Assembly (NCBI GenBank): GCA_944391115.1
Contig: CALXSJ010000003.1
Coordinates: 1-64,000 of the forward strand
Direction: 5' to 3'
From: an uncultured Victivallales bacterium
GTDB lineage: Bacteria > Verrucomicrobiota > Lentisphaeria > Victivallales > UBA1829
Length of the DNA: 64,000 nucleotides
A program made the translations under genes and the position numbers. Positions 2,191-24,396 of this stretch are shown here, in pieces; position 1 is the first letter of the stretch; every line of letters begins with the position of its first letter. The notes below the pieces were generated by a model. That model saw only the letters and a program-made list of their open reading frames with translations, was not told the DNA's origin and searched no databases.

Positions 2191-3621
2191 ATGGATTCTG
2201 AATATAAAAACAAGAACGGTAATTCCGTGCAGATTGTCACTGAGATTGCCGCCAGAATTCGTTCCGGAGACTTTCCCGCCGGGACCCGTCTGCCGCCGGA
2301 AAAGGAACTTGTCCGGGAATACGGCGTCAATGTATACAGCATCAGGAAGGCGATTGCAGTTCTGAAGGAGCAGGGGTTGCTTTATTCCGTTCCGAAGGTG
2401 GGAGTGTTTGTTGTGCGGGATATCCGGATTTCCGGAGAGAATCCGCCATTCTATTTCGGTCCTGATCTGGGAAAACAGACCCTTCGCCTGGCAACGCAGA
2501 GCAATCTGGAAACGCAGCTGAAGTTCTGGAAGAGCGTGGAAAAAGTTCAGCCGAGCCTTTCCGCGGTTTCCATCTGGGATTCCTCTGCGGATTCGGGAAT
2601 TGCCGGTGATACGGCGCGCGCGGATATTTTCGAATACGGCACGTTTGACGCTGCTTACTACAGGCGAAAGGATTTTCTGAATGTCCGGAAGCATTTCTCC
2701 TGGGCGTTTCCCGCGGGGGAACCGATGCCGGATGAACACGGGATTCCGATTTATTCGGTTCCCGGGCTGCTGATGGTGAATCTCGACATGCTGAAAAAAA
2801 TCGGCGTTTCTCAGGAATATTACCGCAATTACGAGGAACAGAACGCCTATCTGGAGCGGATTCTCTCGGCAGCGGAACGGAAGGGACTGCCTCTTCCGGG
2901 GACTTCTCTGGGAATCATTAAAAGCATCGGACGCAGGCATCTTGCCGGGATGTATGCCATGATTCTTGATCCCGCGGCGAAACTGGAGGATTTCCGAAAG
3001 CGCTTTTCTCCGGTCATTCGCCGGGCAACCGCTCTCTGGCGGCGCTACAGGACCAGTTATCCGAATATCGCCGTCCCGGCTCTTCAGGATTTTCTTGCCG
3101 GACGGACACCTTTTTTCCGCGGCTCGGTGGCGGATTTCATCAGCATGAAGGAGCGGAAGCCGGAATTTCCCTGCACAGCGTCCATGCTGTTTGCTGAGGA
3201 TGACACCTACAACCGGATCCTGATGACCCTGTCCATTCATGCCGGAACGGAACATCCCGTGGAGGCGATTCAGCTGGCCCGTCTTCTGCGCGGTCCGGAA
3301 TTTCAAAGCAGATTTGCGGAAATGGGCGCGCTTCCGGTCGATCCGCTCTGCTGGAAGGATTATTCTCCGGAATCCTCGGATCTGGCGAAGAATCTTGCCG
3401 CTCCGCTCGTCTTCCGCTCTCCGGAGGAGTTTTATGTCTACGTCAATATATTGAACGTGGAACTCATGAGAATCATTCTCGGGCAGAAGGAACAGGCGGC
3501 TGCCGAATATGACGTTTTCATGTTTGGCAGATCCTATCTGGCGTTCCGCGAGGAACGGATGACGGAGGAGGAAAAAGAGCGGTTCCGCGAAAGCGGAAGA
3601 CGGAATGCGGCTGCCGTTTGA
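2191..3621 (+). CDS. GntR-type regulator fused to a solute-binding-protein-like domain
   Basis: This 476-residue cytoplasmic regulator begins with a GntR winged helix-turn-helix (about residues 10-77: IRSGDFPAGTRLPPEKEL, then VYSIRKAIAVLKEQGLL). The remainder (about 85-440) resembles an extracellular sugar-binding protein of an ABC importer, with a PIYSVPGLLMVNLDMLKKIG segment typical of that fold. There is no signal peptide. By analogy with GntR/LacI sensors, I infer that the C-terminal domain binds a sugar and controls DNA binding. It is the first gene of glycan cassette 1, behind its own promoter and three GTTGCA repeats. GGAG lies 6 nt before the ATG. The ligand cannot be read from the sequence. 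Confidence 0.85.
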   Translation: MDSEYKNKNGNSVQIVTEIAARIRSGDFPAGTRLPPEKELVREYGVNVYSIRKAIAVLKEQGLLYSVPKVGVFVVRDIRISGENPPFYFGPDLGKQTLRLATQSNLETQLKFWKSVEKVQPSLSAVSIWDSSADSGIAGDTARADIFEYGTFDAAYYRRKDFLNVRKHFSWAFPAGEPMPDEHGIPIYSVPGLLMVNLDMLKKIGVSQEYYRNYEEQNAYLERILSAAERKGLPLPGTSLGIIKSIGRRHLAGMYAMILDPAAKLEDFRKRFSPVIRRATALWRRYRTSYPNIAVPALQDFLAGRTPFFRGSVADFISMKERKPEFPCTASMLFAEDDTYNRILMTLSIHAGTEHPVEAIQLARLLRGPEFQSRFAEMGALPVDPLCWKDYSPESSDLAKNLAAPLVFRSPEEFYVYVNILNVELMRIILGQKEQAAAEYDVFMFGRSYLAFREERMTEEEKERFRESGRRNAAAV

Positions 3622-3719
3622 TAAAACTGCCGCATACAGGAAGAAATACCCGTTCCGGTATTTTCACCGTGTCGGCGGATTGTCCATAATCATGAAGAAA
3701 GCAGAGAAGGAGGAGGGAA

Positions 3720-4445
3720 ATGATTCGGAAAAGGCGGATGTGGTTTACTTTGATAGAGCTTCTGGTTGTGATTGCGATCATCGCGATTCTTGCGGCATTG
3801 CTCCTGCCGGCCCTGGGCCGGGCCAGAGAACAGGCCAGAACGGTCAGCTGCGCCGGCAATCAGAGACAGATTGCGCTCGGCCTGAACATGTACAGCATGG
3901 ACTGCAAAGATTATTATCCGCCTGCCGTCAAAGCTTCCTACTATACCTGGGTGGACAAGGTTTATTCCTATGTGAGTCCGGGAAACACGCTGACCGGCGG
4001 ATATGCCGTGTATGTCCCTTCCAAGCTCTTCCGCTGCCCGAGCAGCAACCAGCAGGAATTTTACACCACGCGGATCTCCTACGGGTTTCATATGTATTTG
4101 AACACCTCGGAATCCGCCACTCCCGGATTTGTTCCGAAAACAGTCAACATTCCGTTTCCATCGGAAGCGCTGCTTCTTTCGGAGCTTTACGACAAATACA
4201 TAATCGGAAATTATGAAGTTGCTCCGCGGCACGGAACCAGGGGGAATCCGGATGAAATGACCAGCTATACCAATTATACCTATTTGTCCGGCAGAGCCAA
4301 TATGGCGACTGTTGCCGGGAATGTGGTGAAGCATACGGCCAGGTATTTCATGTATGCCTATCGTCCCGTCTATCAGGATCCGACGGTGACTCTGCCCTAT
4401 AATCAGTCGTTTTCCAAAAACCCGAAACGTCCTCCCATGGATTGA
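3720..4445 (+). CDS. Type IV pilin-like protein (prepilin N-terminal domain)
   Basis: This 241-residue protein has the prepilin segment [20 protein letters not shown] at about residues 9-28, followed by a long helix and a variable globular part. It belongs to the pseudopilin/DUF1559-like group abundant in Lentisphaerae and Planctomycetes. The residue before FTLIE is Trp rather than the usual Gly, so cleavage by a standard prepilin peptidase is uncertain. The C-terminal region resembles the H-X9-DG segment, but the DG is replaced (MATVAGN). A strong site, GGAGGAGGG, precedes the ATG. It lies 98 nt after the regulator and 12 nt before the hydrolase-like gene, consistent with one operon. A role in the envelope or in handling secreted enzymes is inference. 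Confidence 0.85.
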
Positions 4446-4457
4446 AAGGAGTTTCCC

Positions 4458-7190
4458 ATGCTTTGCCGATGTCAGTTTCCTGCCGCCGTTCTGGTCTTTT
4501 TTGCTCTCTGCCGGGCGCTTCAGGCGGAGCCCGTGGAAATCATGACCGGAAACCGGGGATTTGAAGAGGTGAAGGACGGTCTGCCGGAACGCTTTCATGT
4601 TTCCGGCGGACGCCTGACCAGCTCTCCGGAAAAGACAAGTGGAAAATACGGTGCGAAATATGTGACGGAAAAAGGCCGTTCCCTGAATTTTTTCGCAAGC
4701 CGGTGGGACAACCCGACACCGGTCCGGTGCGGAGACGTCTACACCTTCCGTTTTTCCGCGAAGGGCAGCGGGAGCATCGGCTATCTGATTCCGCAGTATT
4801 CCGGCAATATGTTCCGGAAATCCCTGTTCGGCCCCTATGAGAAGCTGACCCCGGAATGGAAGCGCTATTCCTTCAAAATCCGGATCGAGCGCAAGGACAT
4901 CAACAACATCCTGCCGGGCGTCAGCGTTTCCTCCGGAGGATATGCGTTTCTGGACGACTTGTCCGTGACCTATGATCCGGCCGACAACGGCGGACGGCTT
5001 CTTCCCGTTGAAGAAGCGCCCGAAATCACAACTCTGCCGGTGAAAATGGCCTGTCGGAATGCGCGGGGTGTTCTCCGCATCAACGGGAAAAGCGTTTCTT
5101 CCATGGAGCTGAAGGAGGGTTTCAATGTCCTCGAAGTGGAACTGACGCCTTCCGGAGACAATCCGTCATTCCGGATGGAGGCGCCTGCCGGACTGGAAGC
5201 GCTGCGCAGTGGATGGAAGGAAGCTCCCTCCGGATTCGGAGCGGACTGTTCGTCCCCGGAATTCGACGACAGCGCGTGGGAAACTGCCCGGACGGACGCT
5301 TCCGGAGAAATCGTCTCCCGGCGCGGCGGACGCGCGCGCTTCCGTTCGGTCGTTTTGTGGAACCGGGATTATTTCGGCAAAGAGAGCATGCTGAACCGGA
5401 AACAGAAGGAGTGGCTTCTTCCCGCCGGTTCCATCCAGCCTCTGCTGCTGAAACTGGGGCCGAGTCCTTTCATCCGTCCCTGCAAGACACTGCATCTGGA
5501 ACTCTGGCTGCCGGACGGCGTGACCCTGATGGATCTGAAGCAGGAGAAACCCCGTTACGTGCTGAATCAGGAACCGGACAGAGTGGAAAGTAAGGGCAGA
5601 TGCCGGGTCGCGGGGAAGACATATGCAAAATACGTGCTCCAATGGGAGCAGGAAAAATTAAAGCCGTGGGGCTCCAACGGACAGGAACCGCAAAGCGTGA
5701 TTCCGCTGAAAGTGTCCGCAGAGGTTACGCCGGAGACGGAAGCGTCCATTCTGTTCGGCCGGGTCGTTCCGGGGGATTTTGTCGAGATTCCGAAGCGGAT
5801 TCCAGTGAAATTCTTTCCTCCCGTCCGCGGAAAACAGCCGAAGCGTCTCCGGCTGCAGACCTATGCGCCTGTTCCGCTTTTCGCTCTTTCCGCGCTTCCG
5901 TTTGAAGTGCTTGACGCCCTGATTCTTCAGGAAAAAAAGATCGGCGTCAATCAGTCGCTCGGCGCCGTCTACATGAAAGGATGGGAGACATACACCCGGC
6001 GTCTGATTGAAAACTGCGACCGCGCCGGAATTGACCGCTTTGCATGGCCGCCGCATAATTTCCCTCTGCATTCGATGTATCTGGGAAGCGGAGCCCCCCG
6101 GGATTGCGGATTTGCACAGCTTGCCGCGGAGCCTGCGAAACAGGCCGTCTATTTTCCCGCGGGACCGCAGACGGAATGGGGGGCCGATCCCTGGAACGGG
6201 GCGATGTACTGTCCTTCCCGTATGCTGGACACGCCGGAGGGAAAGGCCTTTTTCGCCTCCATGGCGGAAAAAGGATTCCGTCACTCGATTTCTCTGCAGC
6301 CGGGAGTGAAAGGAATTTTTCTGGACTGGGAGCAGGAGATCTGGCTTTCGCGGAACCGCATTCCCGGAAAAGGTTCCTACTGCTTCTGCGAACGCTGCCG
6401 CAGCGCCTTTCAAAAAGAATGGAAACTGTCCCGTCTCCCGTCCGCGAAGGAAATTCACGAGAAGTTTCTCCAGCAGTGGGAAACATTCCGTTCGAATCAG
6501 GACCGCCGCCTGAATGCCGTGATTCATGACGTATGCAGGAAGATGGGCTTGAAGCTGATGTTTTACACGCAGACGCAGATGAAAAGCTATTACACGCATG
6601 ACGGCGGTGCATTCGACTATCTGTTTCTCGGGCATCCGTCCGGCAACGCCATCAATTCCGGCAATCAGAAGGAACAGGACGATTTTGCCGCAAAGCTTCC
6701 CGGGAAACGCATGATCGCGCAGGTCTTTCCGGGCGTCACCTCCCGGGGCGCGGCGCAGGACGGCAATCCGGACGGTTTTGTCGTTCCCTCCCGCTGGAAA
6801 GGCATTCTGCTGCGTCTGTTCGCCACATACCGGACGGGAGCGGACATCTGCACGCCGACCGATCATATCGGCGGCGTCGGATATTATATCGGCGAGGCCA
6901 TGCGCGCAGTTGCGGATTTTGAGGATTTCTTTCTTTCGGGAAAACGCTCCGACCGTTCCGGTGCGGTTCGCGGCATCCGCTATCCGGATCTTCTCGTTCT
7001 TGAGAAAAACGGCGGGAAACTGCTTCTGCTGTTCAATGAATCGGAAAAAGACCTGGAGATTTCCGTTTGTCCGGGAGGCGGAGAAACGGCGAAGGCCTAT
7101 TATTCCGGACACGTTTTTCCCGGCGGAAAAACCGCCACGCTCCGCATCCCGCCCGAGAATGCGGAGATCCTGCTGATGGAACAGAAATAA
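4458..7190 (+). CDS. Secreted glycoside-hydrolase-like protein with a C-x-C-x2-C motif
   Basis: This 910-residue protein begins with a signal peptide (about residues 1-23, ending RALQA). The first 200 residues look like a beta-sandwich carbohydrate-binding module. The middle is unassigned. From about residue 470 the sequence reads like a TIM barrel of the beta-galactosidase/GH-A type, with GIFLDWEQE (acidic residues near 623-625) and a cysteine cluster, YCFCERCRSAF, with cysteines near 642, 644 and 647. A small beta domain closes the protein. A related C-(Y/F)-C-x2-C cluster occurs in the DUF4838 protein of cassette 2. Activity on a polysaccharide or glycoside is likely, but family and substrate are not established. 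GGAG precedes the ATG, 12 nt after the pilin gene. Confidence 0.7.
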   Translation: MLCRCQFPAAVLVFFALCRALQAEPVEIMTGNRGFEEVKDGLPERFHVSGGRLTSSPEKTSGKYGAKYVTEKGRSLNFFASRWDNPTPVRCGDVYTFRFSAKGSGSIGYLIPQYSGNMFRKSLFGPYEKLTPEWKRYSFKIRIERKDINNILPGVSVSSGGYAFLDDLSVTYDPADNGGRLLPVEEAPEITTLPVKMACRNARGVLRINGKSVSSMELKEGFNVLEVELTPSGDNPSFRMEAPAGLEALRSGWKEAPSGFGADCSSPEFDDSAWETARTDASGEIVSRRGGRARFRSVVLWNRDYFGKESMLNRKQKEWLLPAGSIQPLLLKLGPSPFIRPCKTLHLELWLPDGVTLMDLKQEKPRYVLNQEPDRVESKGRCRVAGKTYAKYVLQWEQEKLKPWGSNGQEPQSVIPLKVSAEVTPETEASILFGRVVPGDFVEIPKRIPVKFFPPVRGKQPKRLRLQTYAPVPLFALSALPFEVLDALILQEKKIGVNQSLGAVYMKGWETYTRRLIENCDRAGIDRFAWPPHNFPLHSMYLGSGAPRDCGFAQLAAEPAKQAVYFPAGPQTEWGADPWNGAMYCPSRMLDTPEGKAFFASMAEKGFRHSISLQPGVKGIFLDWEQEIWLSRNRIPGKGSYCFCERCRSAFQKEWKLSRLPSAKEIHEKFLQQWETFRSNQDRRLNAVIHDVCRKMGLKLMFYTQTQMKSYYTHDGGAFDYLFLGHPSGNAINSGNQKEQDDFAAKLPGKRMIAQVFPGVTSRGAAQDGNPDGFVVPSRWKGILLRLFATYRTGADICTPTDHIGGVGYYIGEAMRAVADFEDFFLSGKRSDRSGAVRGIRYPDLLVLEKNGGKLLLLFNESEKDLEISVCPGGGETAKAYYSGHVFPGGKTATLRIPPENAEILLMEQK

Positions 7191-7265: not shown

Positions 7266-7829
7266 ATGAACAAACAACTGATTTGTGCAGTGCTCGCTTC
7301 CCTGGCCGTCTTCAGCGTTTCCGGCGCTCCGGACGAAGGGAAGATGGATCTCGGCAAGGTGAATCCGGAGAACGGACAGCCGCAGGGCTGGGTCCTGAAC
7401 GCGGTCAAGCTCTCCAAGACTCCCGATCCCGTTCCTCCCGTTGCGGCGGTCAAAAAAGAGGCCGACGGCACGGCGTATCTGCATCTTGCCGGCGGCAATA
7501 CGACCATCAACCATTTCTATCTTCCGGATTTCTTCCCCGCTGCGGGCGGCAGGACGAGCATTGAATTCACCTTTGATGTCCGCCCGCTTACCGGAGGAGG
7601 CATTGCCTGCGGAGCGTATCTGTTCAGCGGGAAGAAATGGCTGCGGACGGCCTTCACAAACAAATGGGGGCTGAAGAAAGGGGAGTGGCAGAAAGTGACG
7701 GTCTCGATGCCGATTCAGGCGGAGTTCCGGGGAAGCCCGGTGGATTGCGTCCGTCCGCTTCTGATCTGCGGGCAGAAGGAGAAGGTGGATTTCCGGAACA
7801 TTGCATGGAAAATTGTTCCGGCGAAATGA
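7266..7829 (+). CDS. Small secreted lectin-like (beta-sandwich) protein
   Basis: This 187-residue protein has a clear signal peptide (about residues 1-20, ending VFSVSGA). The mature part has alternating beta strands with the WQKVTVSMPI and KVDFRNIAWKI pattern typical of jelly-roll carbohydrate-binding modules. No catalytic motif is visible. It probably binds glycan in the periplasm or outside the cell as an accessory to the neighbouring hydrolase-like proteins. AAAGGAA precedes the ATG. A protein of similar size and layout occupies the same place in cassette 2 (22779-23261). The family is unidentified. Confidence 0.65.
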   Translation: MNKQLICAVLASLAVFSVSGAPDEGKMDLGKVNPENGQPQGWVLNAVKLSKTPDPVPPVAAVKKEADGTAYLHLAGGNTTINHFYLPDFFPAAGGRTSIEFTFDVRPLTGGGIACGAYLFSGKKWLRTAFTNKWGLKKGEWQKVTVSMPIQAEFRGSPVDCVRPLLICGQKEKVDFRNIAWKIVPAK

Positions 7830-7862: not shown

Positions 7863-10490
7863 ATGGATTTTGTGGAAGAACTGCATACCTGGCAGGAGAT
7901 CCCCTGTGCGGGAAATCCGGAATCTCCCGGGAACATCCGGGTGCATTCCGAATTCCCGGATCCGGAAGGAGTGCTGGATTCGGCATACTCTTTTCTGAGG
8001 CGCCTGAAATCTTTTCCTCTTCGTGTCGAAATCTTCAGAAGACAGACGGGGTGTTTCGAGGAATACGTGTTCGAGACGGAACCGGGAGTCTGCCGGATTT
8101 CCGCCTCGGATACCGAGGGCGTCCGGCGGGGCGTCTACCGGATCGGGGAGATCCTGCGCGAATATACCCCTTCGTCGCTGCCGGTCACCCGGGAGACATT
8201 CCACCCGTTTTTTCAGATCCGGATCAGCCGTTACCGCTTCGGCTCCCACACCTGTTCCGGCGAGAAATATGAACTGGATCCGGATTCCGACTACTATCCG
8301 GAGCCGTTTCTGGACCGTCTCGCCTCCGAGGGCGTCAACGCCGTCTGGTTCAACGCGCCACGGTTCGAGGATTTCTTTCTGACGGAATGGACCCCCGGAA
8401 ACGCGGAGAAGAAACGGGCATATTACGCCAAGCTCCGGGAGAATGTGGAACGCTGCCGCAGATACGGGATCCGGATTTTTCCGTATCTGGTGATTCCCGA
8501 GGCATGGGCGTTCGATCATCCGCTTCTGCGGAAATATCCCGGTCTGGCCGGTCCGGCGCTTACTGGACGGAAGTTTTTCTGCCCGGCCTTTGAAGGAAAG
8601 CGTTATCTGCATGATTCCATGCGCCAGCTTTTCCTGGATGTGAAGCATCTGGGCGGATTCCTGATTATCGTGCAGGGGGAAGGGGCCGCGGTCTGCCAGG
8701 AGTTCCTGCAGTTCGGGGAGATTCCCTGCCGGAAAAAATGCGGTCTGAGTCCCGGGGAAATTTTTGCGGAGAGTCTCCGTGCCATGTATGAGGGAATCCG
8801 TTCCGCGTCTCCGGAGGCGGAAATGTTCGCCTGGTTTTATCAGCCTTTTGCAAAAAATCCCGCGGAATACCTCCGGGAAACCTTTGCGCTTCTGCCGCGG
8901 GGAATCGTGTTCCAGTACAACGCGGAATCCGGCAGCCGCCCGGTGCAGCTGGGGAAAGAGCGCGAGATCGGCGACTACTGGCAGTGCGTCACAGAGCCGT
9001 CGCCCGCCTTCCGGAAATTTGCCGCGATGACCCGAACGGCGGGACAGCGTCTTTCCGCGAAGATTCAGGTCGGCGCCTCCCATGAAGTCGGATCGGTTCC
9101 CTACGTTCCGGTTCCCGCGCTCACTTACCGGAAATACAAGGCCCTGCGGGAGGAGGGGGCTGACAATGTCATGCAGGTCTGGGGAACGGGGGGAACGCCC
9201 GGCATGATGAATTTCACGGCGGGCCGTCTGGCCTTCACGGATTTTTCCCGGGTCTCCGAGGAGGAATTTCTGCTCTCGCTCGGCAGAACCCTGTGGGGCG
9301 AAGAACTTGCTCCGCAGGCGGCGTGCGCCTGGCGGATGCTCTCCGAAGCATACCATGAAAATTATCCTTATTCCAATATGGTTCAGTATTTCGGACCGGT
9401 CGCGGACGGCGTCAACTGGCCGCTGTATGCCGTTCCCGCGCGGAAGCCGCTTCTTCCGACGTGGAGTCTGAACGGCGGCGCGGTCAGCGGGGACAACCTC
9501 TGCGAATGTCTCAACAATCACACGTTTTCCGAAATCGTGACTCTGTTCGGGAACCTTTATACGCAGTGGAAGGCGGGGGTGGATGTCTTCCGCACCATGG
9601 CGCGGACGCATTCTCTCACGGCGGAGCAGAAGCGGGAAATCGTGCGGATGGAGGCTTTGGAGATCCAGTTCGGAAGCGCCTGGCGCATCTTCCGTTTTTA
9701 TCAGCTCCGGAACCGGATGTTCGCGGAAAAAAATACGGTCTGCGCGCATGAAATGCGGACGATCGCCGGGGAGGAGACGGCGGCGCGCCTCCGAATGCTG
9801 GAACTGATTGGCATGGATCCCGTTCTGGGATACAATCCGGAGGCGAGGGGATTCAAATATGACGAACGCTCCATCCGTTCCGGACTGGCCGCGATGGAGC
9901 GGACCCGCAGGGAGCTTGACCGTCTTGAGGCGGGGGATTTTTCGGATCCCTTTGTCCGGCACGGAGCCTGCCTGGACGGGCGTGCCGTCCGTCTGGAACA
10001 CTTTTCATGGAGCGGGACCTGCCGGGACGGCGTGCTCCGGATTCATGTGGAGTGCCCCGGACATTTCCGGGTGCTGGACGAGCTGTTCTTCGCCTTTGAC
10101 AATGACGGGGCGGACTATCCGATTCACGGCCATGCGGATTCCTTTGCGCGCATCTTTATAAAGCCCGGTGCCGCGCAATGGACGATCCGGCGCGGGGAGG
10201 ACTCCTGGGAGACGGATCTGGAAATCCCGGTTTCCGCGCTTCCCGGAGGCTCTCTGAAAAATGTGCGGATGAACCTGACGCGCCTGATCGACAGTTACGA
10301 CCAACGGTGCTCCTGGCCGGGGAAGGAGGGCGGTTTCCTGCGTCCCCGGCTGAACCTGGCGTTTTACGATCCGCAGGACATGGGCGATCTTCTGACGCCG
10401 GAAGGGCAGGGGGGTGTTTCTTCTCCATCCGGAAGTGTTGACGTGTCCCCCCGTGCCGCCATGTCTGCATGGCAAAACGGAGTCGCGTGA
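7863..10490 (+). CDS. GH20-like glycoside hydrolase with C-terminal CBM9-like domain, no signal peptide
   Basis: About 875 residues. The N-terminal 100 residues resemble the alpha/beta domain that precedes the GH20 barrel (TEGVRRGVYRIGEIL). The barrel follows (about 110-520), with HPFFQIRISRY and EGVNAVWFNAPRFEDF near its first strands. The Asp-Glu pair of classical GH20 hexosaminidases is not evident; GGFLIIVQGEGA occupies a comparable place. About residues 700-860 look like a CBM9/DOMON-type sandwich (DSWETDLEIPVSALPGG, then NVRMNLTRL). No signal peptide is seen, so it may act in the cytoplasm on imported oligosaccharides. I prefer ATG 7863, with GGAGG 4 nt upstream, over ATG 7830, which lacks a site. 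Confidence 0.65.
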   Translation: MDFVEELHTWQEIPCAGNPESPGNIRVHSEFPDPEGVLDSAYSFLRRLKSFPLRVEIFRRQTGCFEEYVFETEPGVCRISASDTEGVRRGVYRIGEILREYTPSSLPVTRETFHPFFQIRISRYRFGSHTCSGEKYELDPDSDYYPEPFLDRLASEGVNAVWFNAPRFEDFFLTEWTPGNAEKKRAYYAKLRENVERCRRYGIRIFPYLVIPEAWAFDHPLLRKYPGLAGPALTGRKFFCPAFEGKRYLHDSMRQLFLDVKHLGGFLIIVQGEGAAVCQEFLQFGEIPCRKKCGLSPGEIFAESLRAMYEGIRSASPEAEMFAWFYQPFAKNPAEYLRETFALLPRGIVFQYNAESGSRPVQLGKEREIGDYWQCVTEPSPAFRKFAAMTRTAGQRLSAKIQVGASHEVGSVPYVPVPALTYRKYKALREEGADNVMQVWGTGGTPGMMNFTAGRLAFTDFSRVSEEEFLLSLGRTLWGEELAPQAACAWRMLSEAYHENYPYSNMVQYFGPVADGVNWPLYAVPARKPLLPTWSLNGGAVSGDNLCECLNNHTFSEIVTLFGNLYTQWKAGVDVFRTMARTHSLTAEQKREIVRMEALEIQFGSAWRIFRFYQLRNRMFAEKNTVCAHEMRTIAGEETAARLRMLELIGMDPVLGYNPEARGFKYDERSIRSGLAAMERTRRELDRLEAGDFSDPFVRHGACLDGRAVRLEHFSWSGTCRDGVLRIHVECPGHFRVLDELFFAFDNDGADYPIHGHADSFARIFIKPGAAQWTIRRGEDSWETDLEIPVSALPGGSLKNVRMNLTRLIDSYDQRCSWPGKEGGFLRPRLNLAFYDPQDMGDLLTPEGQGGVSSPSGSVDVSPRAAMSAWQNGVA

Positions 10491-10504
10491 CAATACAGGA
10501 AGAC

Positions 10505-10533
10505 TTGCAAAGTTCACGCTGATGTTATAAGGT
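10505..10533 (+). promoter_or_regulatory. Possible promoter of the 10710-14246 gene
   Basis: TTGCAA (10505-10510), 17-bp spacer, TAAGGT (10528-10533). The -35 box lies between the arms of a GCGTGA...TCACGC inverted repeat (about 10487-10520). This suggests the large downstream gene is transcribed, and perhaps repressed, separately from the rest of cassette 1. Confidence 0.4.
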
Positions 10534-10709
10534 AAAAGAAGGGGTTCTGTCTGGGCAGCCTGCCCGTTCTTCCGGCGTTTCCCGGGCGGCCGGCTGTTCC
10601 GTCCGCGGCGTGCCGGATTGAAGTTCGCTGTCACGCGGAATCAAAGGTGTGCAAAACAACAGACACTGCCGAAGCATTCTGTTGGCATTTCAATTCAGGA
10701 AAGTGTATT

Positions 10710-13700: not shown

Positions 13701-14246
13701 CCATGTGAAGCGCTTGCCTGCCCGGCGGATCTTTCGGAAGTTCCGGAACAGCGCGCGCTTTTCGCCGGATGGGACGCTGCCGCCGGCGCAACGCTTCTGC
13801 TGCGTTCGGAAACAGATGCGCCTGTGCTTTCCGAATTTGCCTCAGGCGGTCCTCCGTGCGCGTTTTTCCATCTGCCGCCTTCCGCGGTCCGCCGCGCCCG
13901 GGAATATTTTCCCAGTTACGGCGCGGAGTCCCTCAGCACGCTGGTGAATCTGGCCGCGGGGGCGGTCTGCCGGAGACTGGAACGCTCCGGCGTTTCCCTC
14001 TCCGAAGGCAGCCTGCTGGATTTTCAGGACACCGCCGGGGAGAAACATTTTATCATCTCCGAAGATCATTGGCCGGAGGGAGAGAAAACCGTGTTCCCGA
14101 CTCTGGTTTTCCATATGAGAGGGATCACGCGGGAAAAAATTGAATCCTCCGTTCCGTATGAGACGCTTTGGGAGAAGGAGGACGCTCTGGCAATCTCCTT
14201 TATGCTGAAAGCGCATGAAAGCGCAATCGTCAGCATACGGACTTGA
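10710..14246 (+). CDS. Very large protein with N-terminal lectin-like domain, unknown function
   Basis: About 1178 residues from ATG 10710, which follows CAGGAAAG by about 6 nt; upstream in-frame ATGs lack a site. No signal peptide is present. The first 210 residues look like a concanavalin-type sandwich (LGLKVKDGILRLHANG, then GYRGGMLGLDRNL). A middle region of about 500 residues, rich in Trp, Asp and Tyr, could be a catalytic barrel. About residues 880-980 resemble the Rossmann-like amidotransferase-fold domain found in several glycosidases (SLLVVPPLDGVPEKYQKELR). I cannot place it in a named family. Its position after the cassette 1 enzymes points to glycan breakdown. Confidence 0.55.
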   Translation: MKPFCRQRFDCCPDHGYPHGWKLEKNSANSNCLGEVRAGIFELLFPGNRHIAVTPELTDFECEMEVVTGKIFPCAGLRIFIGYQEERRTGYLLTCRWGTQIPHPCRRSFRGVPPEYFSAALSLYDGRKQGISATPLQEERGPSGIYSPDCPLKLGLKVKDGILRLHANGASAGVFPLPGYRGGMLGLDRNLRDFKDSLGILSFHLDLPEEAFSEEILLPERSMEFPPGVNGIVSPVHYHASVIRRCGIPVLKMRLTGGPPKESPYPEIERFRLGERMTSPYLRLIRADGSECGRYCFCRGTVGLDAECWNELCSVYPPSSHAFPVETEFILREWSDEMRFVAGYEKYEAEDSNSTAGGPTEAFLDAQWNVLCAGPAEDERAELLSVPDKKIVAGIPRDIPDFEKALAFARRNFFYAPDEEPRVVLRFLSRHAGDGVSGLRALLVLENAFGEPADWSAEVTLKRTAAPENAAGYAVFSGNGLLPKLPCGVWHLRGKVFFSGVRHEVRRALEILTNDLSLPPPQASGLPALHCNIIAGIPSEHFNPWSETVNDIMHYHSTGSLFFKVAQRLQAPRLLHVYGRPYLFWLRGCCFASGGIEENAGLVREADYTAIERYRPDCWCRAHYNSPDLRRTLIRFLKSGAFHALPGGCLSAATVPEDPQIPLSEAQFRELYECFFNEWLDWCDRESGAFVLDYADALKKAGAKGLYAFCSAGYPTYASVGKSDYFLRFCGLDPRNGPPVEQYAWGPNGVEDYPWSSRYPLSRGVFQMAAGKLSFPNAPQNPECFGTNGETADSHVVYAHPPFGRSSPPAGFLEKLFYNYSYGICYFRDGAFHYWNDHGYHIRMWEKHHYEDMFRAYRFIRRHSPVRPAVRSVGFVLSLDSCAAHRRDCDDIPEIAPGGGIYNTAEEFVPFIYEQRRKQGGSAGFVTRMEDLAGLRGEDVSLLVVPPLDGVPEKYQKELRRLHGEGTSLLGSESPGTLADLFGLNARSAPLEVRKILPCEALACPADLSEVPEQRALFAGWDAAAGATLLLRSETDAPVLSEFASGGPPCAFFHLPPSAVRRAREYFPSYGAESLSTLVNLAAGAVCRRLERSGVSLSEGSLLDFQDTAGEKHFIISEDHWPEGEKTVFPTLVFHMRGITREKIESSVPYETLWEKEDALAISFMLKAHESAIVSIRT

Positions 14247-17964: not shown

Positions 17965-19083
17965 ATGGCATTTCCATCGAAACAGAAGGCGATCTACGAC
18001 CGTCTTGTGCGGGAGATTGCGGAGCGGTATCCGCCCGGCGCGAAACTTCCGCCGGAACGGATGCTTGCCGCTCAGCTGGGAATCGCACGCATGACTCTGC
18101 GCGGCGCCATGGCGCGTCTTGCACGCGAGGGCAGGATTGAAAGAAGCGTCCGCGGAACCTTTGCAGCCGGAGAAAACCATCCGCTTTCCGGCGGGGAGAA
18201 AAGGCGGATTGTGCATATCCTGCTCCCCTGTCCGGATTACACGGTCCGTTCGGGAGCCTCATCCTGTTCGGCCGTCCGTTCCGTAATCCGCGGCGCCGTC
18301 CGGGCCGCGCTCCGTTATGATGCGCAGGTCGTCACGATTCCGGTTTCGGATACGAACGATCCCTCCGCGTTTGACCGGAATCAGCTCGCGCTCCTCAGAA
18401 AAAACGATATTGTCCTTTTTGTCGGCTCCTGGTATGAAAAACTCTGCCCACTGCTTGCGGAGCGCCAGTGCCGGGTCGGGTTCATTGTCAACGGAGTGGA
18501 ACGGATTCCCGCGTGCTTCCAGAACGGAAATCTGCCGTACTGCGTCTTTTCCCGCCCGATTCTGGCCAATTATCTGCCCGAGGTGCTGCGCCATGCGAAA
18601 CGTCTGCGCTTCCGGAAGGTTCTGCTCTTTCTCCGCAGGAATTTCTCCCTGTGCCGTTATCCCGGCGAACTTCTGGATGCCGCGTTGAAAAAGGAGACCA
18701 GGGAGAGTTTTCCGATGAGACTGAAAACTTACATCTGCCGCCAGGACGCTTCTCTTGCGGAGCAGTGCGAACGGATCCGCTCTCTTTATGAGCGCGAGGC
18801 TTTTGATGCGCTGATTTTCGATGCCGAGACAAAGGCGCGCTTTCCGCTTTCGCTTCACCGTCACTGCAATCTGCCGTCCCGCGTTGCCATTTATGTCCGC
18901 GGTCTCGATTTTCTGGAAGGGGCCGGGGAGGAGAGAAAGCATCTTTATTTTTCCCGCTCCGCCTTTCTTGAATGCGGCAGCGCCCTGGCCGCCTATTTCC
19001 TCTCCGGAGAGCGGCACGGGGGAAAAATCCTGAATTTCAGGCATATCCTTGTGAATGGAGACAACATATGGAGGAAAAGATGA
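17965..19083 (+). CDS. GntR-type winged-helix regulator with LacI/PBP1-like sensor domain
   Basis: A 372-residue cytoplasmic regulator. Residues 1-70 form a GntR winged helix ([20 protein letters not shown], then [19 protein letters not shown]). From about residue 80 the sequence looks like the periplasmic-binding-protein type 1 sensor of LacI/AraR-type regulators ([12 protein letters not shown], then [14 protein letters not shown] and RVGFIVNG). AraR has this GntR-LacI combination, so sugar-responsive repression is likely, though the ligand is unknown. It opens glycan cassette 2 and matches the position of the regulator in cassette 1, but the sensor fold differs (type 1 here, ABC-importer type there). 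Confidence 0.8.
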
Positions 19084-19201: not shown

Positions 19202-19924
19202 ATGAAACAGAGCTTTACTTTAATCGAGTTGCTGATCGTGATTGCCATCATCGCGATTCTGGCAGCCCTGCTTCTGCCTGCGCTCAACAATGCCAGAAGC
19301 ATTTCCATCGGGATCAAATGCCTGTCCAACATCCGGCAGATCGGCGGCATTTATGCGCTCTACGGGACGGACTACCGCGATCAGATTCCTTCCCCTTATT
19401 CCATGCGGAACAATTCCGGAGCGGATTATTCTTTCTTCGGAAAACTTGCCTCTCTTTATAAAATTCCGTTCGGACAAGATGCGGAAAACGGCATTTTCCG
19501 CTGTCCGGCCTATCCGAGAGAAGGGTATCTCGGGAATTCCTTCTACACCAGCTACGGAGGGAACACCTACGGGCTCACCGGGCAGCAGTCACCGTCCGCA
19601 TCCGGCGCGAACCAGCGGACGACCGTGTTTTTCAAGCAGCCGTCCAGAACGGTGTTTCTGGGAGAAAACCATAACCATCACAGGGTCGATATGGCCGGGA
19701 CGGTTCTGCCGCCGGAAACCCATACGAATGCGACCATCGCATTCCGCCACAGGGGGAAGGCTTCCTTTTCCTTCGCCGATGCGCATGCGGAACAGCGGTT
19801 GAAAAAGGCGGTTCCCTGCGTGCAGGGGTATCCGTTCATGACATCAAGCGCGGATCTGCTTCTTCTGAAAGGCAGCTACTTCTGGCATACCTTTGCAACC
19901 GCGGAAGCTTTCAACGGAATGTGA
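19202..19924 (+). CDS. Type IV pilin-like protein (prepilin N-terminal domain)
   Basis: A 240-residue pseudopilin-like protein. The prepilin segment [20 protein letters not shown] starts at residue 5. The residue before Phe is Ser, not the canonical Gly. Near the C-terminus [17 protein letters not shown] keeps the spacing of the H-X9-DG motif, with DA in place of DG. It resembles the pilin-like gene of cassette 1 in length and position. GGAGGA precedes ATG 19202; the open frame extends to 19055 but lacks a site there and would bury the prepilin segment. It lies 118 nt after the regulator. Function beyond a membrane-anchored, pilin-like fold is not known. Confidence 0.85.
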
Positions 19925-19935: not shown

Positions 19936-22782
19936 ATGAAAATCATTCTTCTGCTGGCCTGCGCGGCCATGAGCATGAACGCCTCGGAAATGACGATCGT
20001 GCGGGACGGACGCCCGGAAGCGGTCATTGTTCTCCGGAAAAAACCGACCGCCTCCGCCCAGATGGCCGCCCTGGAACTCAACCACCATATCGAAATGGTG
20101 ACCGGAACCAGACTTCCGGTCAGGACGGAAGAGGGCATCCCCGGAAAAATACGGATCGAACTCGGCGGCGATGCGGAGCCTTCCGCGCATGAGTATTCCT
20201 CCATTCAGTTCCGGAAAGACTGCATTCAGATCCGCGGCTCCGATACGGCCGACTTTCACAAGGTGGACTACAGGAACAGCGCGACTTTCCCGAAAGGCTC
20301 TTACGGAACCCTTTTCGCCGTCTACGATTTTCTGGAACGCTTCTGCGGCGTCCGCTGGTACGGACTGACCGACGATGCCACGGCGTTTGTCCCGCGAAGG
20401 ACGCTGACGCTGGAATGCCGGGATTTCCGGCACATTCCGAAAACGGACGCCTTCCGGAGCATTTACAACTCCGGCGGACGGGCGCAGACCCTGCGTGTCC
20501 TCTCCTACACGCCGCGCGACGAGGCGCTGATGAAATACCGCTGGCGCTGCGCCGCTTTTTTCGGACAGACCAATCACAATCTCTACCGGATTTACTTCAC
20601 ATACTGGGACCGGGCGAAAAAGCCTGCGTATGCCGCGCTTTTCCGCGGCCGGAAGCCGGAGTATTTCGCGCAGGGATATGCGGGGAAAATGATGCCTCTT
20701 GACGGATTTCTCCGGCGGGAATACCCCGATGACCCGGACTGTCCGCCGGGCATCTGCTTTTCCTCTCCGGGTCCCGTGGAGTTCTTCGCGGAACAGGCCG
20801 TCGATCAGTGGAACGGAAAACCGATGCCCGGACTGCCTTCCGGCGGCGCTTACCTGAAACGTCTGCCGGGAAGACCCTTTTTCTCATCGGTTCAGCATCT
20901 GGATACGCAGGGACCCTGTTACTGCGCGGCATGCGCAAAACGGGCCGCGGAGAACGGACAGAACCATCTGATGTGGCAGTGGATTGCCGACATTGCGAAC
21001 GCCGCGGGCGCAAAACAGCCCGGACTCGGAATCTCCACGCTGGCATACCAGCGGACCCTGGCTTATCCGGAACACGTGAAGCTGCCGGAGAATCTGTGCG
21101 TTCAGCTCTGCCTGGGCATTCATGCGTGGTGGAATCCGGAATTCTACCGGATCCAGCATGATGAAATTTACAGGAAATGGATGGAAAACAAAGGTGGCCG
21201 GGTCATGACATGCTGGCTGTACCTGTTCGGGCCGGGGTGGGATTCCAAGACCCGCTACAAGCATAAATTCTTTCCCGGCGTCTATCCGCGCCATGCGGGA
21301 CGGATCGTCCGGGAGATGGTGCGGGACGGCATCCGGGGCGCCTTCATTGAATGCGAATGGTCGCGCAACATGCTGGAAGTCTATCTTGCCACCCGGCTCT
21401 TTTACGATTCCGAACAGGATGTGGATGCGCTGCTGGACGAGCATTTCCGTCTTTTCTACGGGCGGTCCGGCGATGACATGAAGGCGTTTTTCACCGAACT
21501 GGAGAATATCTACTGGAATTGGAGGAATTACCCGGCGTCGATGTTCGGAAAGAACGGTGTGGCGTCACGCCTGCGCGCCCATTCGCTGGGAACCGGCATG
21601 CTCAGCGCGGCGAACAACTGGAGTGTTGCGAACGATGCGCGCATGAAGCGTCTCTCCTCCCTGATCGATGCCGCGGAGGCGAAGGCGGACACCCCGTTGA
21701 TCCGGAAGCGGATTTCCTGGATCCGGAAGGGATTCTGGGATCAGGCCCTGGAAGGATACCGGGATCACCGGAAACGGGAAAAAATTGCACGGATGCCGGA
21801 AAAAAGCATTGTCATTGCGCGCTGTCCCGACGCGGACGGGAATCCGGATGCCGTGGACTGGACACTCGGAACCTCGGCGGGAGACGCGCACACGCTGGAG
21901 GACGGCACCGTGCTTCCGAATGTGTTCCGTTTGAAACTTGCCGCGGACAGCCGGTATCTGTACTTCGACTTCCTGGAGGAGCGGAATCAGACACATCCCC
22001 GTCTCTGGAAAAATTTCTTTGAGATTTTTCTTTCTGCCGACGGCGCCATGCCGGTGACGCAGATCGCTTTCGCACCATCCACGAAGACGCCGCTCTGCTA
22101 CCGGACGGACATGGTGAACGATGTCACCCATACCGGAGCGTTTTCCCCGCCTCTGAAATTCCTCAGCGCGGCGGAAGAGGGGAAATGGCACTGGCGGATG
22201 GCGCTCCCGCTGTCCGTGATCGGTCCGGAGAGCCATCGGCGTTTCCGGATGAATTTCCGCCGTTTCCGTGAGGATTGCAAACTGGTCTGGAACAAGTTTT
22301 TCGCCTCGGCGGCCGATTGCGTCGGCAATATGGGGTATGTCTCCATCCGCGGCGGAAGCCCGATCGCGGTGAAACTGGGATTCCATGAGGGGAGAATCCG
22401 CGGGGAAATCGCCTCGTGGCATCTTTCCCGGGGAACAATCCGTTTCTCCTCCGTTCCGGATGCCGCCGATGTGGTGATGAAGGCGAAAGACTCTCTCATC
22501 AGCGCGGAGAAGATTCCCGTTGTGCAGGGGGAGACTGTCCGCGTCCTGTGGAGGGCTGAGGGGGATCGTCTCCCCCGCTGCGGCCTTCAGTTTTTCAAGG
22601 GCTCCGGGCCGGGAGGCGGCGTCCTGCGCGGGAAAACGCGCCGGAAGGAGGGGAATCTCCTGGAAAGCCTCTTTTCCGTTCCGGAGGGGGCGACGGCCTG
22701 CCGCTGCGTCTTTTCCGCGGAAGGCCCGCTTGCATTCCGCCTCTCGGATGTCACGGTTTCAACAGGAGAAAACATGCAATGA
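19936..22782 (+). CDS. Secreted DUF4838 protein, putative glycan-active enzyme
   Basis: A 948-residue exported protein (signal peptide about residues 1-18). The N-terminal alpha/beta domain resembles the one preceding GH20/GH67 barrels (YGTLFAVYDFLERFCGVRWY). The DUF4838 core follows, with FFSSVQHLDTQGPCYCAACA (cysteines near 328, 330 and 333) and a barrel-like region to about residue 560. Residues 640-790 look like a CBM9-type module (RYLYFDFLEE, WHWRMALPLSVIG, FRMNFRRF), and a further beta domain ends the protein. DUF4838 proteins are common in glycan-degradation loci and are assumed to be glycosidases, but the reaction is not established. ATG 19936 is preceded by GAGGAG. It overlaps the next gene by ATGA. 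Confidence 0.85.
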   Translation: MKIILLLACAAMSMNASEMTIVRDGRPEAVIVLRKKPTASAQMAALELNHHIEMVTGTRLPVRTEEGIPGKIRIELGGDAEPSAHEYSSIQFRKDCIQIRGSDTADFHKVDYRNSATFPKGSYGTLFAVYDFLERFCGVRWYGLTDDATAFVPRRTLTLECRDFRHIPKTDAFRSIYNSGGRAQTLRVLSYTPRDEALMKYRWRCAAFFGQTNHNLYRIYFTYWDRAKKPAYAALFRGRKPEYFAQGYAGKMMPLDGFLRREYPDDPDCPPGICFSSPGPVEFFAEQAVDQWNGKPMPGLPSGGAYLKRLPGRPFFSSVQHLDTQGPCYCAACAKRAAENGQNHLMWQWIADIANAAGAKQPGLGISTLAYQRTLAYPEHVKLPENLCVQLCLGIHAWWNPEFYRIQHDEIYRKWMENKGGRVMTCWLYLFGPGWDSKTRYKHKFFPGVYPRHAGRIVREMVRDGIRGAFIECEWSRNMLEVYLATRLFYDSEQDVDALLDEHFRLFYGRSGDDMKAFFTELENIYWNWRNYPASMFGKNGVASRLRAHSLGTGMLSAANNWSVANDARMKRLSSLIDAAEAKADTPLIRKRISWIRKGFWDQALEGYRDHRKREKIARMPEKSIVIARCPDADGNPDAVDWTLGTSAGDAHTLEDGTVLPNVFRLKLAADSRYLYFDFLEERNQTHPRLWKNFFEIFLSADGAMPVTQIAFAPSTKTPLCYRTDMVNDVTHTGAFSPPLKFLSAAEEGKWHWRMALPLSVIGPESHRRFRMNFRRFREDCKLVWNKFFASAADCVGNMGYVSIRGGSPIAVKLGFHEGRIRGEIASWHLSRGTIRFSSVPDAADVVMKAKDSLISAEKIPVVQGETVRVLWRAEGDRLPRCGLQFFKGSGPGGGVLRGKTRRKEGNLLESLFSVPEGATACRCVFSAEGPLAFRLSDVTVSTGENMQ

Positions 22783-23261
22783 AACATCTGGCAGCTCTCG
22801 TTTTTCTGTTTCTTTCCGCTTTTCTGACGGCGGATGAACTTGCCGAAGTGCAATGGCCGCCTGCAAACGGCGGGATTCCCGGCTGGACCGGGACATTTTC
22901 CGCTGGGAAAGGCGGTGAGATGGTCGTGAAAAAAGGTGTCGTCCACACCGGAAGCAAATATCCGGCCGGCGGCAGGCGCAGCCTGAATGTCCGCTTCGCC
23001 TTGAAAGGGACCGGCGCGGGAATCGGGCTGTATTACTATGACCGGGCGGGCCGTCTGCTGGGAAGGGATCCCGAACGGATTCCGAATGCGGAGGAGACGC
23101 GGGTTTTTCAGGCCGTTTTCCGGATTCCTGACAAATGGGAAGGGAAGGAGATTTTTTCCTTCCGGATTTATTTTTCATCCGGAAGCGGAATGACTTTGTC
23201 GCAGTTTCATGCGGATTTGCAAACAGGGAAAGGAATTGCAGATGTTCCGGAAAAATTATGA
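22779..23261 (+). CDS. Small secreted lectin-like (beta-sandwich) protein
   Basis: A 160-residue protein with a signal peptide (MKHLAALVFLFLSAFLTA). The mature part reads like a jelly-roll carbohydrate-binding module (RSLNVRFALKGTGAGIGLYY, then KWEGKEIFSFRIYFSSGSG). No catalytic residues are recognisable. It is translationally coupled to the DUF4838 gene (ATGA overlap) and its 3' end overlaps the oxidoreductase gene, so all three are co-expressed. It parallels the protein at 7266-7829 in cassette 1. The binding role is inferred. Confidence 0.6.
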   Translation: MKHLAALVFLFLSAFLTADELAEVQWPPANGGIPGWTGTFSAGKGGEMVVKKGVVHTGSKYPAGGRRSLNVRFALKGTGAGIGLYYYDRAGRLLGRDPERIPNAEETRVFQAVFRIPDKWEGKEIFSFRIYFSSGSGMTLSQFHADLQTGKGIADVPEKL

Positions 23262-24396
23262 CATTGCGGTGTGCGGCGCCGGAGTGGCCGGCGTCGCGGC
23301 GGCTCTGGCATGCGCGCGCCGGGGAATGAAAACCGCGCTGATCGAGAAGACGACGCAGCCGGGAGGTCTTGCTACGGGAGGTCTTGTGCTGGTCTATCTG
23401 CCGCTCTGCGACGGACTGGGGCGTCAGATGATCTCCGGCATTTCCGAGGAACTGCTTCTCGCCGCCAACCGTTACGGTCCGCGTTCTCCCAATCTCGAAT
23501 GGCGGACGCAAGGCAGATACACGGCGAGATTTTCCCCGTCCTCCTTTGTGCTGGCCCTTGACGAACTTCTGGAGGAGGCCGGTGCGGATGTCTGGCTTGA
23601 CACGCTGATTACGGGAGCGGAAACCGGAGACGGGCGCCTGGTTTCCATTTCCGTGTCCAACAAGAGCGGTCCGGGAAGCATTTCCGCAAAAGTTTTCGTA
23701 GACGCCACGGGAGACGCCGATGTTGTGCATCTCGCCGGGCATCCCTGCCGTTTTTCGGAGAATTCCATGACGTTCTGGGTGATCGAGCACAACGAAAATC
23801 AGCGTTCCAGCAACGATCTTGACCAGTCCTGCCAGGTCGCCGTCCATGCCGACCCGCTGGAAAACGTTTATACCTCCGACCCCCTGAGCGGGAAAATGGT
23901 GACCGATTTCATCCTGGAGGGGCGCAGGCGTTACCGGAGACTTCTGAAGGCGGAGTACGCCGCCGGAACCGCCTCGCGGACTTCCCATTATCCGGTTTCC
24001 CTGCAGACCGTGCCGCCCATCCGGCGGGGACGTTCCGTCGTCGGGCGTTTCACATTGGATGCCACCATGGCCGGGTGTTCCTTTGAAGACCCCGTCGGCG
24101 TCTTCGGCGACTGGCGGAAGAAGGGACGCCTCTGGCAGATCCCCTACCGGACGCTGCTTCCCGCGGAACTGGACGGCGTGCTGGTCGCCGGCCGCTGCAT
24201 TTCCGCAATCGGAGACGCATGGGAGGCCACGCGTGTCATCCCGGTTTCGGCGATGACCGGCGAAGCCGCCGGGACCGCCGCCGCGATTGCCGCAGCGGAA
24301 AACCGCCTCCCGCATGAACTGGATTATCCGCGCCTCGAAAAGGAGCTTCGTGAAAGAAACGGCTTCCGCCTTGCTTTCCCGCAGAGTTCCCGCTAG
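23242..24396 (+). CDS. FAD-dependent oxidoreductase of the glycan cassette
   Basis: A 384-residue flavoprotein with an N-terminal dinucleotide-binding fold (DIAVCGAGVAGVAAALACAR, then EKTTQPGGLATGGLV) of the FAD_oxidored (PF12831-like) group. A second FAD motif lies near the end (GVLVAGRCISAIGDAWEATR). No signal peptide is seen, so it is probably cytoplasmic. In PVC-group bacteria such enzymes sit next to sugar-processing genes, and oxidation of a sugar or sugar-derived intermediate is plausible. The substrate cannot be read from the sequence. ATG 23242 has AAAGGA upstream and overlaps the preceding gene by 20 nt. A terminator follows at 24424-24450. Confidence 0.8.
   Translation: MFRKNYDIAVCGAGVAGVAAALACARRGMKTALIEKTTQPGGLATGGLVLVYLPLCDGLGRQMISGISEELLLAANRYGPRSPNLEWRTQGRYTARFSPSSFVLALDELLEEAGADVWLDTLITGAETGDGRLVSISVSNKSGPGSISAKVFVDATGDADVVHLAGHPCRFSENSMTFWVIEHNENQRSSNDLDQSCQVAVHADPLENVYTSDPLSGKMVTDFILEGRRRYRRLLKAEYAAGTASRTSHYPVSLQTVPPIRRGRSVVGRFTLDATMAGCSFEDPVGVFGDWRKKGRLWQIPYRTLLPAELDGVLVAGRCISAIGDAWEATRVIPVSAMTGEAAGTAAAIAAAENRLPHELDYPRLEKELRERNGFRLAFPQSSR

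Follow-up and report, generated by a model that had tools for sequence, protein, structure and literature searches.

In the SusC/SusD loci of Bacteroidota, a sugar-type regulator stands beside the genes of secreted glycan enzymes, and many such loci occur per genome. A layout of the same kind is described here for an uncultured Victivallales bacterium (genome of 3.66 Mb in 44 contigs, 95% complete), starting from a window of 64,000 nt, positions 1-64,000 of contig CALXSJ010000003.1, which carries two cassettes. It differs from the SusC/SusD loci in that no TonB receptor was found, each unit encodes a pilin-like protein, and the regulators are of the GntR, LacI or AraC type. A sequence-only reading of the window had proposed that the system lacks SusC/SusD and uses the pilin-like protein in their place. 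The absence of SusC agrees with our search of the genome, in which the TonB receptor family PF00593 gave 0 matches (the control search matched in three known genomes; SusD was not searched). The replacement was not borne out, as no feature found marks the pilin-like protein as an uptake protein. Its Phe at position +1 (F+1), Glu at +5 (E+5) and N1 helix, taken with a type II secretion system (T2SS) operon in the genome, point to a secretion or pilus machine.

Pilin-like proteins in high copy number are known from Planctomycetales, in which proteins with N_methyl and SBP_bac_10 (DUF1559) domains number at least 41 per genome and are often flanked by signal-peptide genes, and Tuwongella immobilis has 100 N_methyl proteins (from the part of PMC8567305 that treats them). 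The SBP_bac_10 family, PF07596, is called a solute-binding protein family in a passage of a paper on R. baltica (PMC2754498). The pilins described here share with the planctomycete expansion, as far as that part of PMC8567305 describes it, the pilin class, the high copy number and the signal-peptide neighbours.

We give an even chance to the explanation that the cassettes are sugar-switched operons, each of which encodes secreted glycan enzymes together with its own pseudopilin for a shared export machine, with a relaxed prepilin peptidase. The unit would be switched on, presumably on contact with sugar, by a one-component regulator of the LacI type, of the GntR type with a borrowed sugar sensor, or of the AraC type in divergent orientation, and each unit would make one pilin-like protein and one or more glycan enzymes exported by Sec. 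The pilin keeps the parts needed to enter a type IV pilin-class filament, namely F+1, E+5 and the N1 helix, and would most likely be cut and methylated by the single full-length PilD, whose specificity at -1 seems to be relaxed in the order. On the simplest reading, the leader peptidase of the order would read F+1, E+5 and the helix, and no longer -1. The processed pilin would join the shared T2SS (or a type IV pilus) as a cassette-specific pseudopilin, and may help the export or surface retention of the enzymes of its own cassette.

The layout recurs throughout the genome of the window. Profile searches (E ≤0.001) gave 115 N_methyl, 65 GntR, 74 AraC-type and 38 LacI matches, the N_methyl total being at least 115, as 150 of 155 candidates were scored. 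A GntR, LacI or AraC regulator lay within 2.2 kb of 72 of the 115 pilins, against a mean of 25.3 and a maximum of 43 in 1000 random placements. The random placement used the largest listed coordinate as the contig end (2.86 Mb in total in the GntR-centred test), which raises the random counts. The co-occurrence against shuffled positions, which the sequence-only reading had named as a check, was therefore found in this genome. It was specific for side and strand. In the interval 0.2-1.8 kb upstream of a pilin, GntR was found on the same strand 26 times, against a mean of 1.8 and a maximum of 7 in 500 random sets, LacI on the same strand 19 times (random mean 1.0, max 5) and AraC on the opposite strand 11 times (random mean 2.3, max 10). 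The reverse orientations in that interval were not above chance: GntR on the opposite strand 5 (random mean 1.8, max 7), LacI on the opposite strand 2 (mean 0.9, max 6) and AraC on the same strand 4 (mean 2.1, max 9). Seen from the regulator, 27 of the 65 GntR genes had a same-strand pilin 0.3-2.2 kb downstream, against a mean of 2.1 and a maximum of 8 in 2000 random sets. The nearest same-strand GntR or LacI gene within 2.2 kb was upstream of the pilin 47 times and downstream 0 times.

The gene anatomy was determined for 114 pilin genes placed on 92 stretches and the window, 1 of the 115 pilins not being located. The direct upstream neighbour was GntR on the same strand in 26, LacI on the same strand in 19 and divergent AraC in 11 cases; it was AraC on the same strand in 2, divergent GntR in 3, another pilin in 1, and none within the stretch in 3. 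In 45 of the 114 cases a same-strand gene without a regulator label preceded the pilin, and in 4 such a gene lay on the opposite strand. The statement that GntR opens the cassettes thus stands for the window and does not extend to a general rule, LacI (19/114) and divergent AraC (11/114) taking the same place. In the 45 GntR/LacI-pilin pairs the median gap was 23 bp, with 14 overlaps. Of the 112 pilins with a gene downstream, 105 have it on their own strand, at a median gap of 54 bp, 98 of the 105 gaps being shorter than 300 bp. The cassette pilins are mostly 220-285 amino acids (aa) long.

In Mantel tests over 43 GntR/LacI cassettes, the distances between pilin heads were correlated neither with those between sensors (rho -0.05, p 0.76) nor with those between the next enzymes (rho -0.07, p 0.90), and the idea of pilins matched to their cassettes was set aside. 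Sensor and enzyme distances gave a rho of 0.13 (p 0.06; p 0.41 when shuffled within the regulator family). Uncorrelated distances are as expected if the parts were shuffled among cassettes, and the description of a recurring, modular system is upheld by this and by the many units in the genome and in relatives. The N1-helix codons +10 to +15 are unusually uniform (for example GCG in 71 of 92 Ala+11, ATC in 88 of 104 Ile+12 and ATT in 88 of 100 Ile+15); a possible cause is gene conversion, another a recent spread of the 5' end with the heads diverging meanwhile.

N_methyl matches occurred in all 41 sampled genomes of the order, including that of the window, and their number per genome ranged from 3 to 150 or more. 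Among 60 pilins picked by hand from the best 150 rows (22 genomes), a regulator lay within 2.2 kb of 31, and GntR/LacI on the same strand was upstream of 19 and downstream of 1. At 80 loci from named records, a regulator stood by the pilin at 10 of the 25 from Lentisphaeria, 1 of the 34 from Verrucomicrobia, 2 of the 13 from Planctomycetes/Phycisphaerae and 1 of the 8 from other groups (Lentisphaeria versus Verrucomicrobia, Fisher P 4e-4); the groups follow record titles and not a tree, 7 of the 80 loci with less than 1.5 kb upstream were kept, and the regulator profiles, built from the genome of the window, could favour near relatives. The positives include Victivallis vadensis DSM 14823 (loci L250 and L260), a species that NCBI places in Victivallales. 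The rare regulator-pilin neighbours outside Lentisphaeria include locus L236 (Planctomycetes bacterium syqfu) and locus L206 (Phycisphaerales), with LacI on the same strand and AraC divergent. Among open-licence papers, we recognised none on a regulator-pilin-glycan enzyme layout in Lentisphaerae, and a search for pilin, T2SS, GntR and SusC terms gave no hit in a paper on Lentisphaerae strain WC36 (PMC11361711).

The pilin-like proteins have a short positively charged leader and a long hydrophobic N1 helix. A profile of the cassette pilins matched PilA (6xxd, E 2e-15) and GspG (5wda, E 3.9e-8) via this helix. In an alignment of 113 rows, which leaves out the short pilin of locus L091 and imposes no motif, F+1 was present in 111 rows and E+5 in 111, the other two rows ending short at a misplaced start; the N_methyl profile used to choose the pilins itself favours both residues. 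The N1 helix is conserved and the heads are divergent. The model of window pilin 1 (helix 11-61) had a mean pLDDT of 75, lower in the head, and is reliable mainly in the helix. All eight listed rows of its VIA comparison were pilins or pseudopilins, with Z 5.3 to PilA4 and 3.1 to the XcpGHIJK pseudopilus. Foldseek with the modelled head, which is the low-confidence part of the model, gave no match below E 0.001. A known fold for the head was therefore not obtained from Foldseek, the VIA rows with Z up to 5.3 being those of pilins or pseudopilins.

PilD cuts after glycine or alanine, as stated in the parts consulted of PMC3244431 and PMC3584216, and a search motif of the form [GAS]-x4-[DE] is given in that part of PMC3244431. 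Most pilins of the genome depart from this rule. In the 112 readable pilins (2 of 114 without a readable motif were left out), the residue at -1 was N 18, S 15, R 12, K 9, G 8, F 8, D 7, C 6, Y 5, I 5, T 4, L 4, E 3, A 2, P 2, H 2, W 1 and V 1. Glycine or alanine was thus present in 10 of 112, and G, A or S in 25 of 112. Window pilin 1, with Trp, falls outside the rule, and pilin 2, with Ser, agrees with the wider [GAS] form only. The information content was 0.52 bits at -1, 0.60 at -2 and 0.68 at -3, and 4.35 bits at +1; these values and the -1 counts were read with a pattern fixing E+5, or F+1 and E+5, hence a presence of 112/112 at the fixed positions is partly by construction. The residue at -1 is independent of the start codon chosen. 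Among loci from named records, found by patterns starting at or after F+1, -1 was Gly or Ala in 39 of 40 pilins from Verrucomicrobia, 17 of 17 from Planctomycetes and 10 of 11 from others, versus 2 of 32 from Lentisphaeria (Fisher P 9e-17 against Verrucomicrobia; related sequences are not independent). Alignment A5 left out 9 of 85 listed pilins. The planctomycete and verrucomicrobial pilins therefore differ from those described here both at -1 and in the rarity of a regulator beside them (2/13 and 1/34). In other genomes of the order, 3 of 26 pilins not picked by score had Gly or Ala at -1. The 60 score-picked pilins of relatives, from the same loci, all had G, S or A (29, 19 and 12), a selection effect; they were not used for this claim because the N_methyl profile includes the -1 position. 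Among open-licence papers, none was recognised on a loss of glycine at -1 in Lentisphaerae.

The T2SS pseudopilins of the order show the same loss. The genome has a T2SS operon on contig C1 with GspD-E-F-G followed by H-I-J (H, I and J named by place and N-terminus), and the GspG encoded there carries Asp at -1. Core-type pseudopilins were read by a pattern in which E+5 is fixed and -1 and +1 are free. Those of the order (29 loci, n=111) had Gly at -1 in 13 and Ala in 5, that is 18 of 111, and F+1 in 110 of 111. Those outside the order (20 loci, n=28) had Gly in 22, Ala in 5 and Arg in 1, that is Gly/Ala in 27 of 28 (Fisher P 9e-16). Two of the 20 outside loci, from the same class and another order, had Gly or Ala in 3 of 4, and on this thin sample of sequences the change at -1 looks to be one of the order. 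The GspG of locus L298 has Pro at -1, and two loci had no motif in the GspG-based count. Since some members of the order keep Gly (three of four pseudopilins in genome G083), glycine at -1 is still tolerated. Given that -1 is free and +1 is fixed in both the cassette pilins and the T2SS pseudopilins, we argue that the sites are still processed. The cassette pilins resemble the pseudopilins (GspG, H-K) in the N1 helix, F+1, E+5 and, by model, a possible pilin-like fold, with a T2SS operon in the genome. They differ in that they are encoded one per glycan operon, away from machine genes, are longer (mostly of the length given above), and have divergent heads and mostly no Gly/Ala at -1.

The genome encodes one full-length peptidase of the PilD type, in which the two catalytic Asp and four Cys are kept. 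All 35 genomes of the order that were sampled have a PilD relative, as do 109 of the 115 in a phylum sample (one genome has two). In an alignment of 50 relatives, of which 23 come from the order, the two Asp and four Cys were at least 90% conserved. Of 59 PilD positions conserved outside the order, 10 differ inside it. Leu212, 3 residues past the second catalytic Asp, is replaced by Phe or Tyr in 22 of 23 sequences of the order versus 1 of 26 outside. Five same-class peptidases aligned in the first half only, so that their second half is absent from the comparison. A broad-specificity archaeal prepilin peptidase, reportedly described by Albers in 2003, would be a precedent for a relaxed type IV prepilin peptidase; the present case differs in that the enzyme is a bacterial full-length PilD and the substrates of the order, from which relaxation is deduced, are largely without a -1 rule. 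Two further A24 peptidases in the genome adjoin loci that by inspection are of the Tad type (L281 and L279, on contigs C2 and C25). These encode small Flp-like pilins; if their starts are read as A-V-M-M-E-Y, one has Gly at -1 and another His.

The two cassettes of the window lie on the same strand and consist of the following genes.

2191-3621, + strand: regulator 1, GntR winged helix (PF00392, E 2.4e-15) with a solute-binding-protein-like sensor (6wpm, E 2.6e-4)
3720-4445, + strand: pilin-like protein 1, DUF1559/SBP_bac_10 type (PF07596, E 1.3e-6), 241 aa, Trp at -1, F+1, E+5
4458-7190, + strand: large protein (910 aa) of secreted type with C-x-C-x2-C, taken as a glycan enzyme from context only, 12 bp after pilin 1
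7266-7829, + strand: small secreted-type protein of cassette 1, with 7 other cassette genes related (jackhmmer)
7863-10490, + strand: further large protein in cassette 1 without a Pfam match, glycan-type by context, alternative start 7830
10710-14246, + strand: large protein of 1178 aa, likely still cassette 1, after a gap of 219 bp, no Pfam match
17965-19083, + strand: regulator 2, GntR winged helix (PF00392, E 3.9e-15) with a LacI-type sensor (9nt3, E 2.2e-6)
19202-19924, + strand: pilin-like protein 2, 240 aa (N_methyl E 2.3e-6, scanned from 19199), Ser at -1, F+1, E+5
19936-22782, + strand: DUF4838 protein (PF16126, E 3e-17) with C-x-C-x2-C, start possibly 19921
22779-23261, + strand: small secreted-type protein of cassette 2, no relatives among the cassette genes searched
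23242-24396, + strand: flavin adenine dinucleotide-dependent oxidoreductase (PF12831, E 2.6e-63)

The earlier description of these cassettes was reproduced in part: each opens with a GntR winged helix, followed by a prepilin-type protein of about 240 residues and a large C-x-C-x2-C protein. Pilin 1 scored 19.8 bits for N_methyl, slightly under the cut-off as a protein and over it in the genome search. The protein at 19936-22782 is a DUF4838 member (63.2 bits against a cut-off of 26.6, scanned from 19921), and that at 4458-7190 gave no Pfam or PDB match, DUF4838 included. Five window proteins, namely the two small proteins and the three long proteins of cassette 1, had no Pfam match even at E 10, and the term glycan enzyme therefore rests on context in cassette 1. 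The long proteins of the two cassettes have no BLASTP similarity (best E 1.3); the enzymes are not copies of each other, as had been stated, and the cassettes therefore do not stem from recent duplication. The proposed extents were altered in part, as cassette 1 probably extends past 10490 to 14246 and the oxidoreductase that closes cassette 2 is not glycan-specific. Between the cassettes lie housekeeping genes, which from inspection of the translations we take to be an opposite-strand ribosomal RNA (rRNA) methyltransferase, a proline-synthesis-type reductase and a second rRNA methyltransferase. At 24700-27799, 303 bp past cassette 2, three genes resemble by inspection an anaerobic glycerol-3-phosphate dehydrogenase set.

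Both window regulators are GntR-family members by their winged helix, and the claim of two kinds of sensor held. Sensor 1 matched an ATP-binding cassette solute-binding protein (6wpm) and, under the cut-off of the family, SBP_bac_8 (E 0.0023). Sensor 2 matched the LacI-type 9nt3 with a 4-member profile, a single sequence giving no match. AraR-type regulators consist of a GntR winged helix with a LacI-type sensor. Regulator 2 presumably shares this architecture; regulator 1 differs by its solute-binding-protein-like sensor, and both differ in preceding a pilin gene. Candidate operators, short inverted repeats in the stretch from regulator to pilin, are not the same in cassettes 1 and 2; they were looked at without a control, and this lead was dropped. 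Elsewhere in the genome, GntR winged helices at C5:79666 (the start of L025) and C14:61515 lie in open frames of about 900 residues; one of the two reads as an 858-aa protein directly before a pilin, either a very large sensor or an enzyme-regulator fusion.

The genes after the pilin are usually long and mostly signal-peptide-like. By a home-made rule, a signal peptide was assigned to 80 of 101 genes at +1 and to 45 of 85 at +2, compared with 17 of 40 at -1 among unlabelled genes on the same strand (+1 versus -1, Fisher P 4e-5) and 13 of 34 window genes beyond 26.5 kb. Pfam was scanned with 103 of the 105 next proteins (the two left out are both in locus L020, one being itself a pilin). Among the 25 commonest families per half, where one protein may match several, these had DUF4838 in 25, the GH67 N-terminus in 10, Laminin_G_3 in 8 and CBM9_1 in at least 8, with GH2, GH16, GH123, PL8, heparinase-like and other families in 1-3 each. 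Some next genes, such as transporters and a formyl transferase, lie outside the glycan enzymes. Conversely, 43 of 57 DUF4838 matches had a same-strand pilin less than 5.5 kb upstream (1000 random: mean 4.8, max 12). Of the 49 unlabelled direct-upstream genes, 34 were scanned (the 15 left out include 4 on the opposite strand), with AP_endonuc_2 in 6, Laminin_G_3 in 2 and several glycoside hydrolase families in 1-2 each. Part of the pilins not preceded by a regulator therefore also lie within sugar-type operons. C-x-C-x2-C was present in 46 of 123 long cassette genes versus 4 of 22 long upstream genes.

A small secreted protein comes next in both window cassettes, as had been noted. It is not a fixed part of the layout genome-wide, where genes of less than 280 aa made up 16 of 100, 21 of 89, 17 of 65 and 17 of 51 at +1 to +4 after the pilin. 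The two small window proteins match each other weakly (E 0.016). That at 7266-7829 has relatives as free small proteins (L092:5372-5872, L026:3575-3982 and L008:3321-3863) and within long proteins (L074:5197-7674, L080:4728-7580, L057:3519-6071 and L026:4013-7723), which suggests a carbohydrate-binding-like module, free or inside long cassette proteins.

Several points weigh against sugar-switched operons with their own pseudopilins. Pilin heads that track neither sensors nor enzymes do not support a lock-and-key pairing of pilin and enzyme, and 45 of 114 pilins follow, on the same strand, a gene other than a recognised regulator. A changed active site of PilD was considered and set aside, the clustering of changed positions near the two Asp not being significant (P 0.11), so that the changes in the order, that of Leu212 included, are no more than a lead. 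Pilin processing, co-transcription and sugar response are inferred from sequence. The machine served could, moreover, be a pilus, given the tandem PilB/GspE-type ATPase genes on contig C19 (L093/L094), followed by a gene that is PilC/GspF-type by inspection, and the further secretins in the genome besides GspD of the T2SS. An explanation that goes further in this direction, and that we hold to be unlikely though deserving of weight, is that the pilins make up surface type IV pili, or their tips, and that these pili bind the glycan itself, each cassette supplying a glycan-specific adhesin with no role in secretion. It is consistent with a conserved N1 helix carrying divergent heads, with the PilB-like ATPases, with VIA rows consisting entirely of pilins and pseudopilins, and with the adhesion of fibre degraders, for which type IV pilin-like structures are cited in the part consulted of PMC4704652. 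However, the heads do not follow the sensors, the modelled head (a low-confidence region) has no significant structural match, and with few machines, 115 pilins would have to be mixed heavily or expressed strictly one at a time.

The loss of Gly at -1 might instead be a loss of processing, the pilins staying uncut and their start serving as a plain membrane anchor. That -1 is as free as -2 and -3, and that 25 of 112 pilins have the first letter of the motif in the part consulted of PMC3244431, agree with this. On the other hand, uncut pilins would have little need of F+1 and E+5, which all 111 rows that reach these positions show, the PilD match is kept in all 35 genomes of the order sampled for it, and core-type T2SS pseudopilins with F+1 in 110 of 111 show the same loss at -1. 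In known systems these core pseudopilins need to be cut, and an uncut anchor appears improbable to us. Still less credence, and indeed very little, is due to a regulatory pilin, for example a surface sugar sensor that feeds back on the regulator: regulator and pilin genes overlap in 14 of 45 pairs, but the leader is short and offers little cytoplasmic part for signalling, the next, mostly signal-peptide-bearing gene is about equally close, and pilin and sensor distances are uncorrelated. Chance is hardly tenable. With 115 pilin and 177 regulator matches, dense regulators, pilins and glycan genes could fall side by side, but random placement gives far fewer neighbours, and the order is side-specific (GntR/LacI upstream 47 versus downstream 0; in relatives, 19 versus 1).

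If the cassettes are indeed sugar-switched operons with their own pseudopilins, they would represent a layout for polysaccharide utilisation that lacks SusC, in a group with a cultured member, the species Victivallis vadensis, and would tie the unexplained pilin expansions of the Planctomycetes-Verrucomicrobia-Chlamydiae group to regulator-linked enzyme operons. A wider version, which we put forward tentatively and as the less probable of the two, is that the order gave up the Gly/Ala rule at -1 via one relaxed PilD, and that more than 100 pseudopilins, many of them sugar-switched, act as exchangeable parts of one secretion machine, each supplied from its own glycan operon. The loss at -1 breaks the textbook prepilin rule, and motif searches requiring [GAS] at this position would miss most pilins here. 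It also makes the specificity of the prepilin peptidase directly testable on natural substrates.

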